64,000 bases of DNA from Vreelandella piezotolerans (GTDB lineage Bacteria > Pseudomonadota > Gammaproteobacteria > Pseudomonadales > Halomonadaceae). The stretch is taken from assembly GCF_012427705.1 (NCBI RefSeq), contig NZ_CP048602.1, forward strand, positions 558,001-622,000, read 5' to 3'. This document shows positions 43,742 to 49,179 of this stretch, piece by piece. Numbering within the stretch: position 1 is the stretch's first letter; each line of letters starts with the position of its first letter. The notes beneath the pieces are model-generated. The model worked only from the letters and a program-made list of their open reading frames with translations. It was not told the origin of the DNA and ran no database searches. The position numbers and the translations under genes are program-made.

Positions 43742-45001
43742 ATGAATCTCACTGAACTCAAGCAAAAAACCGTTCCCGAGCTGCTCGATATCGCCCGTGA
43801 AATGGGCATCGACAACCTGGCCCGTTCGCGCAAACAGGACATCATTTTCGCCATCCTCAAGAAGCATGCCAAAAGCGGCGAGGATATTTATGGCGACGGT
43901 GTGCTGGAAATTCTTCAGGATGGCTTCGGCTTCCTGCGTAGCGCCGACAGTTCGTACCTCGCCGGACCGGACGATATCTACGTATCGCCTTCACAGATTC
44001 GTCGTTTCAATCTGCGCAAGGGCGACTCCATTTCCGGCAAAATTCGTCCGCCCAAAGAGGGCGAGCGCTATTTTGCGCTGCTCAAAGTCAGCCAGATCAA
44101 CTTTGATCGTCCGGAAAATGCCAAGCACAAGATTCTCTTCGAGAACCTGACGCCGCTGTTTCCGAACGACCGTCTGCGTATGGAGATCGGCAACGGGTCG
44201 ACCGAAGATCTGACCGCCCGGATCATCGATCTGACCGCGCCCATCGGTAAAGGTCAGCGCGGCCTGCTGGTGTCTCCCCCGAAAGCGGGTAAGACACTGA
44301 TGCTGCAGAACATCGCGACCTCGATCACGCGCAATAACCCCGAGTGTCATCTGATCGTGCTACTGATCGACGAGCGCCCGGAGGAAGTCACCGAGATGTC
44401 CCGCACCGTGCGCGGTGAAGTGGTCGCCTCCACCTTCGATGAGCCGCCTGCCCGCCACGTACAGGTAGCCGAAATGGTCATCGAAAAAGCCAAGCGCTTA
44501 GTTGAGCACAAGAAAGACGTGGTGATCCTGCTCGACTCCATCACTCGCTTGGCGCGTGCTTACAACACCGTCGTACCCAGCTCTGGCAAGGTGCTCACCG
44601 GTGGTGTGGATGCCCATGCACTCGAGAAGCCGAAACGCTTCTTTGGGGCGGCGCGTAATATCGAAGAGGGCGGCAGCCTGACGATCATCGCCACCGCGCT
44701 GGTCGATACCGGCTCGAAAATGGACGAAGTCATCTTCGAAGAGTTCAAGGGCACCGGTAACATGGAAGCGCACCTTGACCGCAAACTGGCGGAGAAGCGT
44801 GTCTTCCCGGCGATCAACATTCGCCGCAGCGGCACTCGCCGTGAGGATCTATTGGCCTCTGAAGATGAAATGCAGCGTATGTGGATCCTACGAAAACTGC
44901 TCAACCCGATGGAAGATACCGCAGCCACCGAGTTCTTGATCGATCGTCTGAAAGACACCAAGACCAATCTCGAATTCTTCGAAGCCATGAAGCGCCGTTA
45001 A
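43742..45001 (+). CDS. rho: Transcription termination factor Rho
   Basis: Rho is the hexameric RNA-dependent ATPase that terminates untranslated transcripts. At 419 residues it matches the E. coli length. The N-terminal helical domain ([20 protein letters not shown]) is followed by the primary RNA-binding OB fold ([20 protein letters not shown]). The Walker A motif is [10 protein letters not shown] (about 178-187), Walker B is [16 protein letters not shown], and the Q-loop/R-loop region contains [15 protein letters not shown]. ubiD follows after 60 bp. Confidence 0.98.
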
Positions 45002-45061
45002 GGCGCTCCAGGGTGGCGGTACCGCTATCAGGCATCAGACAGCCGGGTTGAGGAGAGGGCA

Positions 45062-46555
45062 TTGAAGTACAACGATCTGCGTGACTTTATCGCAGCGCTG
45101 GAGGCGCAGGGTGAACTTAAGCGCATCACGGCCGAAGTAGATCCCTACTTGGAAATCACCGAAATCTGCGACCGCACGCTGCGTGCCGGTGGTCCTGCAC
45201 TGCTGTTCGAAAATGTGAAGGGTCACGACATGCCGCTGTTGGGAAACCTGTTCGGCACCCCAAAACGGGTCGCGCTGGGCATGGGGCAGGATTCAGTCGA
45301 GGCGCTGCGCGAAGTGGGCAAGCTCTTGGCATTTTTGAAGGAGCCAGACCCGCCCAAAGGGTTAAAAGACGCTTGGGACAAATTGCCGATCTTCAAGCAA
45401 GTGCTCAGCATGGGGCCCAAGAGCGTCAAGCGTGCGCCGGTTCAGGAAGTCGTTTACGAAGGCGATGACGTGGACTTGGGGCGCTTGCCGATTCAGCACT
45501 GCTGGCCGGGCGATGCGGCACCGCTGGTCACGTGGCCGCTGGTGATCACCAAAGGCCCCCATAAAAAGCGCCAAAACCTGGGCATCTATCGCCAGCAAAA
45601 GATCGGAAAGAATCGCCTGATCATGCGCTGGCTCTCCCATCGCGGCGGCGCGCTGGATTTTCTCGAGTTCCAAAAAGCCCATCCCGGCGAACCGTTCCCC
45701 GTCGCGGTGGCGTTAGGCGCCGACCCGGCGACCATTCTCGGTGCGGTGACGCCCGTGCCGGACACGCTCTCCGAATATGCCTTTGCAGGCCTGCTGCGCG
45801 GCTCGCGCACCGAGCTAGTGAAATGTGGCCATGCGGACCTCGACGTGCCCGCCTCCAGCGAAATCATCCTGGAAGGGTTCATCTATCCGGATGACATGGC
45901 GCCAGAAGGGCCGTTTGGTGACCACACTGGGTACTACAACGAGGTGGATCACTTTCCCGTTTTCACTGTGACACGCATGACCATGCGTCGCGACGCCATC
46001 TATCACTCCACGTACACTGGCCGTCCCCCCGATGAGCCTGCCATTTTAGGTGTGGCGCTCAACGAAGTGTTCGTGCCCATCCTATGCAAGCAGTTTCCTG
46101 AGATCGTCGACTTCTACTTGCCTCCGGAAGGGTGCTCTTACCGCATGGCGGTCGTCACCATGAAGAAGCAGTACCCTGGTCACGCCAAGCGCGTGATGAT
46201 GGGCGTATGGAGCTTCTTGCGCCAGTTCATGTACACCAAATTCGTCATCGTGCTGGATGACGATGTGGATGCACGAAATTGGGAAGACGTGATGTGGGCG
46301 ATCACCACGCGTATGGACCCTGCTCGAGACACCGTCATGGTCGAAAATACCCCCATCGACTACCTCGACTTTGCGTCGCCAGTGTCTGGGCTTGGCTCAA
46401 AAATGGGATTGGACGCGACCAATAAATGGCCCGGCGAAACCGACCGCGAGTGGGGGACGCCCATCGTCATGGACGAAGCGGTGAAAACCCGTGTCGACGA
46501 GCGCTGGGGCGAACTGGGCATTGATATTCCGCTACCCACACCGCGTCATGGTTAA
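45062..46555 (+). CDS. ubiD: 4-hydroxy-3-polyprenylbenzoate decarboxylase UbiD
   Basis: This prenylated-FMN decarboxylase acts in ubiquinone synthesis. The 497-residue protein begins [20 protein letters not shown] at a TTG (45062) preceded by GAGGAGAGG, the best-supported start. It shows the UbiD features [32 protein letters not shown] (catalytic Glu/Asp region), [20 protein letters not shown] and [17 protein letters not shown]. rho-ubiD-fre is the standard gene order. Confidence 0.95.
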
Positions 46556-46597
46556 GCGGATGTGCGGGGCCGAACGACTTTCCACAAAGAGGCTTTC

Positions 46598-47362
46598 ATG
46601 AGCGCTACGTTAACGTGCAAAACGCTAACCTGCCAAGTCACCGCCGTCGAGGACCTCAATCCCGACGTGTTCCAAGTGACGCTTGCCGGTCGCGCTGAGG
46701 CAATGCAGCATGCGCCCGGTCAGTACCTCGAGCTAATGCTGGACGAGGCCACGTGGGTGCCCTTCTCGATTGCGAGCTGCGACAGAGGCGACGGCACGCT
46801 GGAGTTACAGATTCAGCACTGGCCCGAGCGAGATAACTCCCAACGTCTACGCCAACTGCTACAGGTGGCGAATCAGCTCACCGTTCGTTTGCCGAGCGGA
46901 GAGTGCGTGTTGGATACCCAGAGTGAGCGTCCGCTACTGCTGATTGCCGCAGGGACGGGGTTCGCCCAGATGAAGGCCATCGTCGAGGCTGCCCTGCGTG
47001 ACCAGCCCACACGACCCATTTCGCTATGGTGGGCAAACCGTGAGCACCGTGACCTGTATGCCGAAGACCTCGCCTGCGCATGGGCACAGCAGCATGACCA
47101 AATAGCGTTCCATGCCGTTACCGAGTTTCCGCTCACCGAGCCGCTCGCTTCTGGAGAACGCATCGTCCATCACCAAGGTCGCGTCGACTTGGTGTTGGAG
47201 AGTGAGCTTGCCAAGGCCCCCATCCAGCCAAGCGACTGCGATGTCTACCTCTCGGGCTCGCCCGGCATGGTGTACGCTTGCGTGGACGTGCTGGAACGTT
47301 TTGGGGTGAGCAGTGCGCAAATGTTTTCGGATGTGTTTGCCTACGCTCCTCGGCCTCACTAA
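46598..47362 (+). CDS. fre: NAD(P)H-flavin reductase (Fre/LuxG-like)
   Basis: Fre reduces free flavins with NAD(P)H. It often follows ubiD, where reduced FMN is needed to make the prenylated FMN cofactor (via UbiX). From ATG 46598 (MSATLTCKTLTCQVTAVEDL) after AAAGAGG it is 254 residues, somewhat longer than E. coli Fre. The ferredoxin reductase fold shows HAPGQYLELMLDEATWVPFS (flavin), LLIAAGTGFAQMKAI (nucleotide) and YLSGSPGMVYACVD. No iron-sulfur domain is present. A 22-bp AT-rich inverted repeat (47357-47383) covers the stop codon. Confidence 0.9.
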   Translation: MSATLTCKTLTCQVTAVEDLNPDVFQVTLAGRAEAMQHAPGQYLELMLDEATWVPFSIASCDRGDGTLELQIQHWPERDNSQRLRQLLQVANQLTVRLPSGECVLDTQSERPLLLIAAGTGFAQMKAIVEAALRDQPTRPISLWWANREHRDLYAEDLACAWAQQHDQIAFHAVTEFPLTEPLASGERIVHHQGRVDLVLESELAKAPIQPSDCDVYLSGSPGMVYACVDVLERFGVSSAQMFSDVFAYAPRPH

Positions 47363-47427: not shown

Positions 47428-47556
47428 ATGGCCCATCACGACGACAATTTCAAAGACGATTCTGGCATTCTGCCGATCATACTGGGCATCGTGGTCTTGG
47501 TCGGTATGAGTGCACTGCCCGCCACGATTGGTTGGATCCAAGCGTTCGGCAGCTAA
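47428..47556 (+). CDS. Small single-pass membrane protein, function unknown
   Basis: A 42-residue ORF starts at ATG 47428 directly after GAGGAGG, the strongest ribosome-binding site in the area. The charged N-terminus (MAHHDDNFKDDSG) precedes one hydrophobic helix (ILPIILGIVVLVGMSALPAT) and a short tail with a single Trp. It lies 65 nt after fre and may share its transcript. It is not aromatic-rich, unlike the two ORFs downstream. No family is recognised. The strong ribosome-binding site and coherent membrane segment argue that it is real. Confidence 0.65.
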   Translation: MAHHDDNFKDDSGILPIILGIVVLVGMSALPATIGWIQAFGS

Positions 47557-47593
47557 TCACTTGCTCATGGGCAACCCGCACGCAAATTCTCGG

Positions 47594-47625
47594 TTGCCAT
47601 TTGGCGCCTGCGCAGGCAGGATAAA
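47594..47625 (+). promoter_or_regulatory. Putative promoter/operator region of the aromatic leader
   Basis: TTGCCA (47594-47599) and GATAAA (47620-47625) are the best -35/-10 candidates, but at a poor 20-nt spacing. Between them lies a 12-bp perfect palindrome GCCTGCGCAGGC (47606-47617), a possible repressor site. It does not match the TyrR or TrpR consensus I know. Confidence 0.3.
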
Positions 47626-47658
47626 GACAGTTCGTCATTAATCGATTGAGGAAGTCCC

Positions 47659-47799
47659 ATGCTACACGGCACGTTGTCATCAAGCGTCACCGCCAAACCG
47701 GAAACGGTGGCGTACGCTTGGGCGAGCGTCGGTGTCACTCAATTCGGTTACTATGCAGCGTATTGGTTTAGCCACGGTGTGCCCCTGGCTGACGCTTAG
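47659..47799 (+). CDS. Candidate aromatic leader peptide 1 upstream of the DAHP synthase gene
   Basis: This is a 46-codon ORF (ATG 47659, TAG 47797-47799) with ribosome-binding site GAGGAAG 4 nt upstream. Residues 19-37 carry Tyr19, Trp21, Phe29, Tyr31, Tyr32, Tyr35, Trp36 and Phe37, with the core FGYYAAYWF, an unusually dense cluster of the three end products of the pathway. A strong hairpin begins 6 nt after the Phe37 codon: GGTGTGCC, CTGGC and GACGCT (47776-47796) pair with AGCGTC, GCCAG and GGCACACC (47798-47820). Its right arm can instead pair with 47825-47835. An intrinsic terminator follows at 47843-47880. This is leader-peptide attenuator architecture, though I could not find a clear antiterminator that disrupts the terminator's left arm. 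Confidence 0.65.
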   Translation: MLHGTLSSSVTAKPETVAYAWASVGVTQFGYYAAYWFSHGVPLADA

Positions 47800-47835
47800 C
47801 GTCGCGCCAGCAGGCACACCGCTCCGGTTGCCTGC
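47776..47835 (+). promoter_or_regulatory. Mutually exclusive hairpins of the aromatic attenuator
   Basis: Hairpin 1:2 pairs 47776-47796 with 47798-47820 in three blocks of 8, 5 and 6 bp, and includes the leader-1 stop codon. Hairpin 2:3 pairs GCAGGCACACCG (47810-47821) with CGGTTGCCTGC (47825-47835), about 11 bp with one bulge. They share 47810-47820 and cannot coexist. A ribosome stalled at the Tyr-Trp-Phe codons would cover the start of 1 and favour 2:3. Confidence 0.6.
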
Positions 47836-47842
47836 CGCATGC

Positions 47843-47886
47843 AAAGAAGCCTCGGTGGGTAACTCCACCGAGGCTTCTTTCGTTTT
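47843..47886 (+). terminator. Intrinsic terminator in the leader, upstream of the DAHP synthase gene
   Basis: A 16-bp perfect stem (AAAGAAGCCTCGGTGG at 47843-47858, complement at 47865-47880) has a 6-nt loop, followed by CGTTTT. It is among the strongest terminators in the window, yet it lies 220 bp upstream of the DAHP synthase start, as expected for an attenuator. Confidence 0.85.
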
Positions 47887-47928
47887 ACGCAACCACATTT
47901 CATACGTCATTCATTCAGGAGCTGCACC

Positions 47929-48102
47929 ATGTCTTACCGCGCATACTTTATCGCTAGTCTGAACGCCATCCGTTATATCGGCTATGGCTGGCGATTTAGC
48001 GTCGCGCGGTCGGTGCTAGCTGCCACCTCCGACCGTGCCCATTTGGGTGGCAAGTTGGTGATGCGATGTCACGCGCTATGCCCTACGAATTCGGAGAGTT
48101 AA
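47929..48102 (+). CDS. Candidate aromatic leader peptide 2, coupled to the DAHP synthase gene
   Basis: This is a 57-codon ORF (ATG 47929, TAA 48100-48102) with AGGAG 7 nt upstream. Its first half is aromatic-rich: Tyr3, Tyr6, Phe7, Tyr16, Tyr19, Trp21, Phe23, with the core YIGYGWRF. A hairpin, GCGCGGTCGG (48004-48013) with CCGACCGTGC (48029-48038), 10 bp including one GU, starts 6 nt after the Phe23 codon, the same spacing as in leader 1. A competing pairing is TGCCACC (48021-48027) with GGTGGCA (48046-48052). The stop lies 3 nt before the DAHP synthase ATG, whose ribosome-binding site is inside this ORF, so translation is likely coupled. TTAGCGTCGCGC at 47996 repeats leader-1 sequence 200 nt upstream. 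No U-tract follows these hairpins. Confidence 0.55.
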   Translation: MSYRAYFIASLNAIRYIGYGWRFSVARSVLAATSDRAHLGGKLVMRCHALCPTNSES

Positions 48103-48105
48103 CTG

Positions 48106-49179
48106 ATGAATGCCCCTATCCATACTGCCAATACTGCTTGCCCCACGACTGCCCCGGCTTCCTCGCTCATGTCTGCAACGGCTCTGCCGCTACCCGCTGA
48201 GCTGCGTCAGCGGGTGAGTGTGAACAGCACGCTCCGTTCCCAAATCGATCAGCAGCGCCAAGCGGTGCAGCGTATTCTCAACGGGCATGATGATCGCCTG
48301 CTCGTCGTGGTAGGACCCTGCTCCATCCACGATCCGGATGCTGCCCTGGAGTACGCGGATCGTTTGGCCGCGCTCAGCGACGAGGTGCGCGAACGGATTC
48401 TGCCGGTGATGCGGGTGTACGTTGAGAAGCCGCGCACTACGGTCGGTTGGAAAGGGCTGGCCTACGATCCCGATCTGGATGGTAGCGGTGATTTGCCGCG
48501 CGGTATGACACTATCTCGTGAATTGATGCACGCCGTCGCCTCCCGCGGCCTGCCGATAGCCACCGAGCTATTGCAGCCGATGCTGGCCCCCTACCTGGAT
48601 GACCTGCTGAGCTGGGTGGCGATTGGGGCGCGCACCACGGAGTCCCAGCTACACCGTGAATTGGCTAGCGATCTCAGCGCTGCCGTAGGCTTCAAAAATG
48701 CCACCAGCGGTGACGTGCAGGTGGCCATCGATGCCATGCAGGCGGCGGCCCACTCCCATCAGCGTTTTGCCATGGATAGTCAGGGCCGCCCGATCATGCA
48801 GGAGACCGCAGGCAACCCACACACCCATGTGGTATTACGTGGTGGTCACGGTGAACCTAATTACCAAGCGCACCATGTGCGCCGCGCCGTGAATACGCTA
48901 TGCGAGGCGGGCCAGAATCCGCGCTTGATGGTGGACTGTAGCCACGCCAACGCCCGTAAGGATCACCGCCGCCAAAGTGAAGTCATGCTGGACGTATTGG
49001 CTCAGCGTCAAGCGGGCGACGCAAATTTGGTGGCATTGATGCTAGAGAGTCATTTGTACGAAGGCAAACAAGCGTTGACGCCCAGTGCGCTACGCTACGG
49101 CGTCTCGGTCACTGATGCCTGCGTCAGCTGGGAGACCACCGAGCGCTTGCTGAAAACCGCCGCGGAACGACTGACCTAG
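48106..49179 (+). CDS. aroF: Class I 3-deoxy-7-phosphoheptulonate (DAHP) synthase
   Basis: This enzyme condenses phosphoenolpyruvate and erythrose-4-phosphate, the first step of the shikimate pathway to Trp, Tyr and Phe. The 357-residue protein of the AroFGH family shows VVVGPCSIHDPDAALEYADR, VYVEKPRTTVGWKGL, IGARTTESQLHRELAS, GFKNATSGD and MVDCSHANARKDH, which together hold metal and PEP ligands. An N-terminal tail of about 30 residues (Thr/Ala/Pro-rich) precedes the core. Which aromatic amino acid inhibits it cannot be told, so the symbol is by family. The upstream tandem leader ORFs and terminator suggest control by aromatic amino acid supply. Confidence 0.93.
   Translation: MNAPIHTANTACPTTAPASSLMSATALPLPAELRQRVSVNSTLRSQIDQQRQAVQRILNGHDDRLLVVVGPCSIHDPDAALEYADRLAALSDEVRERILPVMRVYVEKPRTTVGWKGLAYDPDLDGSGDLPRGMTLSRELMHAVASRGLPIATELLQPMLAPYLDDLLSWVAIGARTTESQLHRELASDLSAAVGFKNATSGDVQVAIDAMQAAAHSHQRFAMDSQGRPIMQETAGNPHTHVVLRGGHGEPNYQAHHVRRAVNTLCEAGQNPRLMVDCSHANARKDHRRQSEVMLDVLAQRQAGDANLVALMLESHLYEGKQALTPSALRYGVSVTDACVSWETTERLLKTAAERLT

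Follow-up and report, generated by a model that had tools for sequence, protein, structure and literature searches.

What controls the aroF gene of Vreelandella piezotolerans, and what do the two short reading frames rich in aromatic codons do in front of it? The window analysed here is the whole stretch of 64,000 nucleotides (nt), positions 558,001 to 622,000 of contig NZ_CP048602.1, and the parts of the leader and aroF lie on its forward strand. A class I 3-deoxy-D-arabino-heptulosonate 7-phosphate (DAHP) synthase gene of the AroFGH type, aroF, starts at 48106 (48106..49179) and is preceded by a gap of 549 nt. From 5' to 3' the order is a conserved promoter, a first open reading frame (ORF1), a terminator of 16 base pairs, a second frame (ORF2) and the aroF start. 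An earlier note on this DNA had described tandem aromatic leader peptides with an attenuator; both frames, their ribosome-binding sites, the terminator and the gap were all found in place. The conserved codons and the modelled folding point to a trivalent ribosome-mediated transcription attenuator at ORF1, to which we give a probability of about 0.9. That this holds together with ORF2 being a genuine conserved element, whatever its mechanism, is likely too, if a little less certain. The leader, in two parts between promoter and aroF, would sense whether Phe, Trp and Tyr are each in good supply.

Aromatic codons of ORF1 and their conservation

One genome per species was scanned with the AroF protein, and the best 80 of 254 relatives were kept; together with the window they form 81 Halomonas-group aroF loci, selected by AroF similarity alone. 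The closest named relative among the matches kept was Vreelandella (Halomonas) aquamarina (94%). ORF1 (47659..47799) encodes a leader peptide of 46 residues behind a GAGGAAG ribosome-binding site. Its sensing cluster F-G-Y-Y-A-A-Y-W-F (47743..47769) holds six aromatics in nine residues, and no other frame is that dense among the 797 of 20-100 residues on both strands of the window. Counterparts of ORF1 were found in 81/81 loci, and also in 14/14 other loci matched by the Rfam family RF00627, which is discussed below. Counted back from the stop codon, the cluster spans codons -18 to -10, where Phe, Trp and Tyr are all present in every one of the 81 loci. Within codons -18 to -11 the full set of three is present in 47 loci, Trp and Tyr in 33, and Phe and Tyr in 1; therefore Trp and Tyr occupy the decisive position in nearly all loci. 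Aromatic codons stand at -11 in 81/81 loci, at -10 in 80/81 and at -12 in 72/81, and at each position from -9 to -1 in only 0-3/81. The distance from the last aromatic codon to the stop codon is 30 nt in 75/81 loci, as it is in the window. The order of the residues varies (YAAYWF, WYGYF, PGYRYWF, WWFGYGFYF); whereas the presence of aromatics is constant.

Upstream of ORF1 lies a sigma70-like promoter (TTGCCA-17-CAGGAT, 47594..47622), which is conserved over 21 aligned loci; such a pattern occurs in 76/81 loci, with a spacer of 17 in 74. An RNA start near 47629 would give a leader of about 477 nt to aroF. Downstream of ORF1 is the intrinsic terminator (47843..47887), with arms at 47843-47858 and 47865-47880, a 6-nt loop (47859-47864) and an interrupted U-tract. 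A consensus scan reported neither a terminator nor a promoter at the locus; these negatives carry little weight, because the scan missed a hairpin that is plain in sequence and fold, as well as the conserved promoter.

Competing helices and the predicted switch point

Folding of the window with an advancing ribosome edge gave three competing helices among four segments. Segment 1 (47775..47783) forms helix 1:2 (47775-47783 with 47813-47821); segment 2 (47811..47821) is the partner of 1 or of 3; segment 3 (47826..47837) is the candidate antiterminator strand, and pairs with 2 in helix 2:3 (47811-47816 with 47829-47834) or with segment 4 (47853..47864) in helix 3:4 (47826-47837 with 47853-47864). 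Since segment 4 is made up of the terminator loop and the half of the left arm next to it, helix 3:4 is the missing antiterminator. The earlier note had seen no convincing one; across the 81 loci this helix is 88.0% paired, with 17 double-change cells (reached in 0 of 500 shuffles) and 3 pairs changed on both sides (28/500). Helix 1:2 is 89.1% paired, has 25 double-change cells (0/500) and shows changes on both sides in 4 pairs (3/500); by this last count it is the best supported of the three. The corresponding values for 2:3 are 95.0%, 4 cells (0/500) and 2 pairs (29/500). As controls, helix partners were slid by 1-3 columns, which left 24-62% pairing. The outermost pair of 1:2 is formed in 13/81 rows, and one inner pair of 3:4 in 14/81. 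Between the Gly wobble base at 47778 and its partner, five more standard pair types are seen (77/79 paired), a variety that is not explained by coding. The terminator was 78% paired on the 81-locus alignment; this figure was not used, as gaps misalign the right arm in part of the rows.

For the computation the front edge of the ribosome was set at +16 from the P-site codon. Helix 1:2 is then computed to dominate while the A site holds any codon from -16 to -11, and 2:3 takes over at -10. With codon -11 in the A site the mean probabilities are 0.67 for 1:2 and 0.17 for 2:3; one codon later, at -10, they are 0.01 and 0.91. Computed at the end of segment 3, the probability of 2:3 is 0.93. The predicted switch point lies where the cluster ends.

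The proposed mechanism is as follows. A ribosome would translate ORF1 with RNA polymerase just ahead. When transfer RNA charged with Tyr, Trp or (at the upstream codons) Phe is scarce, the ribosome would wait at codons -12/-11 or earlier. Segment 1 would then be free to pair with 2, and segment 3 free to pair with 4; with 3:4 formed, no terminator would arise and aroF would be transcribed. When charged transfer RNA is ample, the ribosome would advance over segment 1, 2:3 would pair and the terminator would form.

Several observations weigh against this scheme. Related sequences can beat shuffles without any structure. Slides -3 and -2 of helix 2:3 outscore the helix itself in covariation (0.107 and 0.057 versus 0.045), and slide +3 has 7 double-change cells versus 4; slide +1 of 3:4 has 16 such cells, in 2 pairs, versus 17. 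Phe stands at codon -10 in 79/81 loci, on the switch boundary, and stalling there may not antiterminate. The equilibrium fold up to segment 4 is also less decisive, since in only 42/81 rows does the value drop by more than 0.2 between stall and stop, and in 1 it rises. For the switch to work, 2:3 thus has to form before 3:4, as the order of transcription would favour.

Taken together, the conserved codons, the three competing helices with compensatory changes and the switch point at the cluster end support attenuation at ORF1, and bear out the mixed Tyr/Trp/Phe stalling proposed earlier for this element. The element has a leader peptide with codons for the pathway products, an intrinsic terminator seen both in the window and in the alignment, and a compensated antiterminator that excludes the competing fold; the ribosome position decides the fold in the computation. 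Relatives might have kept neither the reading frames nor the stems, as the earlier note had allowed; both are kept.

ORF2 and the pseudoknot behind it

ORF2 (47929..48102) begins only 48 nt after the terminator. It encodes a second leader peptide of 57 residues (..YIGYGWRF..) behind an AGGAG ribosome-binding site, and 3 nt separate the end of its stop codon from the aroF ATG. With four aromatics in nine residues its density is not exceptional (30 of the 797 window frames reach at least 4). The motif TGGCGATTT was found in 78/81 Halomonas-group loci, and from the Trp codon the frame stays open for 32-37 codons in all 78. The stop ends -8 to +4 nt from the aroF ATG in 77/78 loci and at +17 in one. 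ORF2 also holds the invariant TGGCGATTTA (47989..47998), which encodes Trp-Arg-Phe and shows no change in 78 rows of alignment A1 and 28 rows of alignment A3. Its codons are always the rare CGA (78/78) and TTT (78/78); in aroF of the same loci CGA makes up 98/2237 Arg codons and TTT 59/209 Phe codons. A gapless alignment over 75 columns joins the Halomonas group to a locus of family f21 (our label), which holds most of the strong RF00627 matches and is presumably Pseudomonadaceae, by the Rfam name alone. In three loci of another family (L093, L120 and L121; f43, g94) the Trp codon is lost and GCGATTTA is retained; therefore the constraint is on nucleotides. The same three loci keep GCGATTTAGC letter for letter.

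The region 3' of the motif is best read, from the pairing pattern of the aligned sequences, as an H-type pseudoknot. Stem A (48006..48036; 48006-48013 with 48029-48036) is paired in 98.9% of cells, with two pairs changed on both sides, and stem B (48022..48051; 48022-48027 with 48046-48051) in 97.0%, with three. The two crossing stems together are 98.1% paired, their 5 pairs changed on both sides were reached in 0/500 shuffles, and the spacings (8, 1 and 9 nt) are gap-free in the 78 rows. A model of the pseudoknot core, R1, was found in 68/121 genomes of the window's family and, at E <= 0.1, in 25/390 genomes of the order; among 274 genomes of the class it was found only in the window's own. 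Of the order-level matches, 19/25 lie below 1e-6 (14 in the window's family and 5 in one f21 genus), one (genome G036) stands at 0.01, and five in other families with E of 0.04-0.08 are probably chance. All 14 of the 25 matches that could be placed against aroF coordinates lie just upstream of the gene. ORF2 and GCGATTTA are kept in 11/11 f21 loci, where a pseudoknot-type continuation follows in 4 and a different one in 7.

A conserved CGATGT follows at 48064..48069, each column at 90% or more. This second conserved word comes about 40-95 nt after the first, and reads CGATGT in the Halomonas group and CGAACAC in the f21 and f43 g94 loci examined. A pairing partner for GCGATTTA or CGATGT was sought by eye only, and none was found.

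Two further candidates were set aside. A second terminator after ORF2 was rejected, as inspection of the sequence between the ORF2 motif and aroF found no run of T fit for one; the consensus scan reported none either, but it had missed the first terminator. A -1 frameshift, suggested by a pseudoknot about 8 nt after the TTT codon, was also rejected, since inspection found no slippery heptamer and the distance from the ORF2 stop to the aroF ATG varies in frame among loci. Thus the tandem claimed in the earlier note stands insofar as both frames are aromatic and conserved; but ORF2, which is followed by a pseudoknot and by no suitable T run, does not repeat the attenuator type of ORF1.

Possible functions of ORF2

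ORF2 is probably a second switch read by the ribosome. We only tentatively assign its action to the initiation of aroF translation, on the basis of predicted folding. Transcripts that read through the terminator would carry ORF2. A ribosome waiting at the ..Y-G-W-R-F cluster would leave the downstream pseudoknot intact; whereas a moving ribosome would unfold it and terminate at the aroF start codon. An intact pseudoknot would tie up a CCUCC anti-Shine-Dalgarno sequence in the window and in many Vreelandella-like loci, and the ribosome held at the cluster would not occupy the aroF start site.

The aroF Shine-Dalgarno region (48091..48096) lies within the end of ORF2. Of 142 sites compared in the window, its best partner is the CCUCC within the pseudoknot. 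A CTCCGA in the pseudoknot (48027..48032) might act as the anti-Shine-Dalgarno and is weak across the family. The pseudoknot holds the best partner in 26/46 Vreelandella-like and 9/32 other rows. With stalling at Trp, the unpaired probability of the window's Shine-Dalgarno is predicted to rise from 0.14 to 0.46. Such release on stalling, the logic of an ermC-like translational attenuator, is a prediction for the window and some Vreelandella-like loci, and does not extend to the whole family. Beyond those loci it found no support as a general rule, since the stalled state with the pseudoknot exceeds the state with the ribosome edge past stem A by more than 0.2 in only 19/46 Vreelandella-like rows, 1/32 other rows and 1/11 RF00627-hit loci.

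The points that weigh against ORF2 as such a switch can be gathered here. Any predicted rise of access on stalling occurs in 33/46 Vreelandella-like rows, 15/32 others and 4/11 RF00627-hit loci. In the helix between anti-Shine-Dalgarno and Shine-Dalgarno, pairing reaches 71.4%, and double-changed pairs are fewer than chance would give (500/500 shuffles reach the count). The entropies of the ORF2 codon positions outside the stems (0.68, 0.93 and 0.96) indicate little constraint on amino acids. Two loci (L046 and L047) are without ORF2 and one (L059) has lost the Trp codon; of the 78 loci with the motif, 76 have an uninterrupted in-frame ATG, and in L043 and L044 the frame is disrupted. In 11/11 f21 loci a gap of 44-48 nt separates the ORF2 stop from aroF. 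Slide -1 of the pseudoknot has 10 double-change cells versus 11, but 1 pair changed on both sides versus 5. L046, L047 and L106 lack ORF2 and have aroF close behind the ORF1 terminator, which makes them natural cases of ORF1 alone.

ORF2 might instead act on the decay of the messenger RNA or on Rho-dependent termination, rather than on aroF initiation; this is unlikely, but the least so of the alternatives. In that case, without a stalled ribosome to shield it, the single-stranded GAUUUA beside the stable pseudoknot would be a site of cleavage or of Rho loading. RNase E has the consensus RN/WUU. The fixation of GCGATTTA at the nucleotide level, which outlives the loss of the Trp codon in the three f43 loci, fits a recognition or cleavage site; whereas the ORF2 stop adjoining aroF in the Halomonas group points to a link with translation. 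Translation control may be taken as the first choice for ORF2.

It is quite unlikely that ORF2 serves mainly translational coupling, in which ribosomes finishing ORF2 would re-start at aroF and the aromatic codons would only tune the flow. The closeness of stop and start in 77/78 loci and the frame left open in 78/78 suit such coupling. However, such coupling would lower AroF on starvation, the reverse of what the ORF1 attenuator would do, and the f21 stops lie too far upstream to fit it in 11/11 loci.

TnaC arrests ribosomes together with free tryptophan. Arrest by the peptides themselves in this manner, instead of a report on transfer RNA charging, is very improbable. The invariant Trp-Arg-Phe in ORF2 of 78 loci would suit it; whereas the changing order and constant presence of aromatics in ORF1 suit codon sensing, and the ORF2 Trp is lost in three loci.

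A bolder reading of the whole leader is that of two ribosome-read aromatic switches in series, ORF1 setting the transcription of aroF and ORF2 the translation or survival of the message, which we consider possible but less than an even bet. On this view ORF2 would represent a leader element of a new class, present in Halomonas-group genomes and in some Pseudomonas-like ones: its pseudoknot would be preserved by a stalled ribosome, and some partner would read the invariant GCGAUUUA next to it. The tandem would also be old, since one locus each of families f20, f38 and f36 likewise has two aromatic frames before aroF, with very different peptides.

Relation to the Rfam family P15 and wider distribution

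The window scored 29.3 bits against RF00627 ('Pseudomonas sRNA P15'), below the curated 70-bit cut-off. Among 194 genomes of the order there were 15 matches, 10 of them above the cut-off, and there were none in 14 control genomes. All 15 lie immediately before an aroF homologue, and each has an aromatic ORF1. P15 is the counterpart of the ORF1 element of the window, and its Rfam structure can be read as the state with 2:3 and the terminator formed.

RF00627 is typed in Rfam as a gene and small RNA (sRNA), and the terminated leader RNA, about 255 nt with a start near 47629, could well be stable. However, we regard it as highly improbable that ORF1 and its terminator form a free-standing small RNA gene, with aroF served by its own promoter 3' of the terminator, and this reading was set aside: every RF00627 match precedes aroF, conservation extends to the aromatic codons and the competing helices, there is a conserved promoter 5' of ORF1, and ORF2 follows the terminator closely. 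The consensus scan reports no promoter between terminator and ORF2, a weak point as it also missed the conserved one. A by-product role of the terminated leader as a small RNA is possible.

A further 40 upstream stretches, picked by hand from the listed aroF matches, were searched for frames with at least 5 aromatics in nine residues. Such frames occur in 16/40: f20 12/12 (for example FFWWFGYGFYFS), f38 2/2, f43 1/2 and f36 1/1. The f43 stretch without one is a paralogue, and no such frame was found in the other 24/40, which include three deliberate paralogues. A second aromatic frame nearer aroF is present in 3/16: in L137 (f20) it reads ..GWRFISGWRY and carries GCGATTTA; in L149 (f38) it reads ..WWYAFGICWRFYRY; and in L159 (f36) the first frame (MTELKML..NAYFYFWQFR) and the second (..FYSYFGNFYGFYWF..) lie about -362 to -76 before the aroF homologue, with a terminator-like hairpin of 14-16 base pairs and eight T between them. 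The layout of L159 is that of the window with almost no common sequence; this tandem looks independent. Four paralogous aroF loci (L082 and L164-L166) have no aromatic-dense frames. L082 (G000:C1:2231555-2232553) is the second DAHP synthase of the window's genome, which is a single contig of 3.95 Mb; it shows 46% identity and has no frame with at least 4 aromatics in nine within 800 nt upstream.

The upstream neighbours of aroF, at 43742-47362, are rho, ubiD and a FAD/NAD-binding oxidoreductase. A frame of 42 residues at 47428-47556 has one likely membrane stretch (..MSALPATIGWIQ..) and no Pfam match at E 0.01; counterparts lie 5' of the leader in several Halomonas-group loci.

Comparison with known systems and significance

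The trp- and phe-type attenuators of E. coli control transcription through the ribosome, and share with the window a short peptide rich in product residues, competing helices and an intrinsic terminator. The window differs in placing three amino acids in one cluster, in controlling a DAHP synthase, and in having one more inversion: stalling would give 1:2 and the 3:4 antiterminator, completion 2:3 and the terminator. For this reason transcription would be expected to pass the terminator when the leader is left untranslated. In Bacillus subtilis the rtpA (anti-TRAP) leader combines a T-box acting on transcription with a Trp-codon leader peptide acting on translation. Transcription and translation elements are thus joined in both leaders; whereas the first rtpA element is a T-box and responds to Trp only.

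Attenuation of the trp/phe type is outlined in passages of PMC11802643. According to passages of the same source and of PMC4046766, an aromatic leader peptide (aroR) also precedes a DAHP synthase gene in Corynebacterium glutamicum; it contains only Phe-Tyr-Phe and answers to Phe, not Tyr, limitation. This makes it comparable in position, but aroR is a single leader in an unrelated bacterium. The LEU element before leuA in Actinobacteria, as far as described in parts of PMC1262725, has a leader peptide with regulatory codons and a conserved pseudoknot; its leucine codons pair with the leuA Shine-Dalgarno, and the authors favour a binding protein. A leader peptide followed by a conserved pseudoknot is thus common to LEU and ORF2; however, the best partner of the window's Shine-Dalgarno lies in the pseudoknot and not in the codon run, and a preceding transcription attenuator is not described for LEU in those parts of PMC1262725.

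P15 occupies the same site before aroF as the ORF1 element, whereas Rfam treats it as an sRNA gene. The name P15 was reportedly given by Livny et al. 2006. Parts of PMC2527527 suggest a riboswitch for P15 from synteny. Predicted aroF and aroH elements are listed for Shewanella in part of PMC2659441, and a survey of premature terminators (PMC2965389) has neither aroF nor P15 in its main text. Among open-licence papers we recognised no description of this leader from Halomonas or Pseudomonas, and found no aromatic leader of this trivalent kind at aroF, no tandem pair and no account of P15 as an attenuator of aroF, an absence of little weight.

In E. coli the DAHP synthase genes are repressed by TyrR and TrpR. 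The leader described here would be a different feedback mechanism on the entry step of aromatic synthesis, and gives an Rfam small RNA, P15, a likely role. The two-stage control, at transcription and then at the pseudoknot, is directly testable. Halomonas and Pseudomonas are production hosts, and in them this leader would be a first target for raising flux into aromatics.

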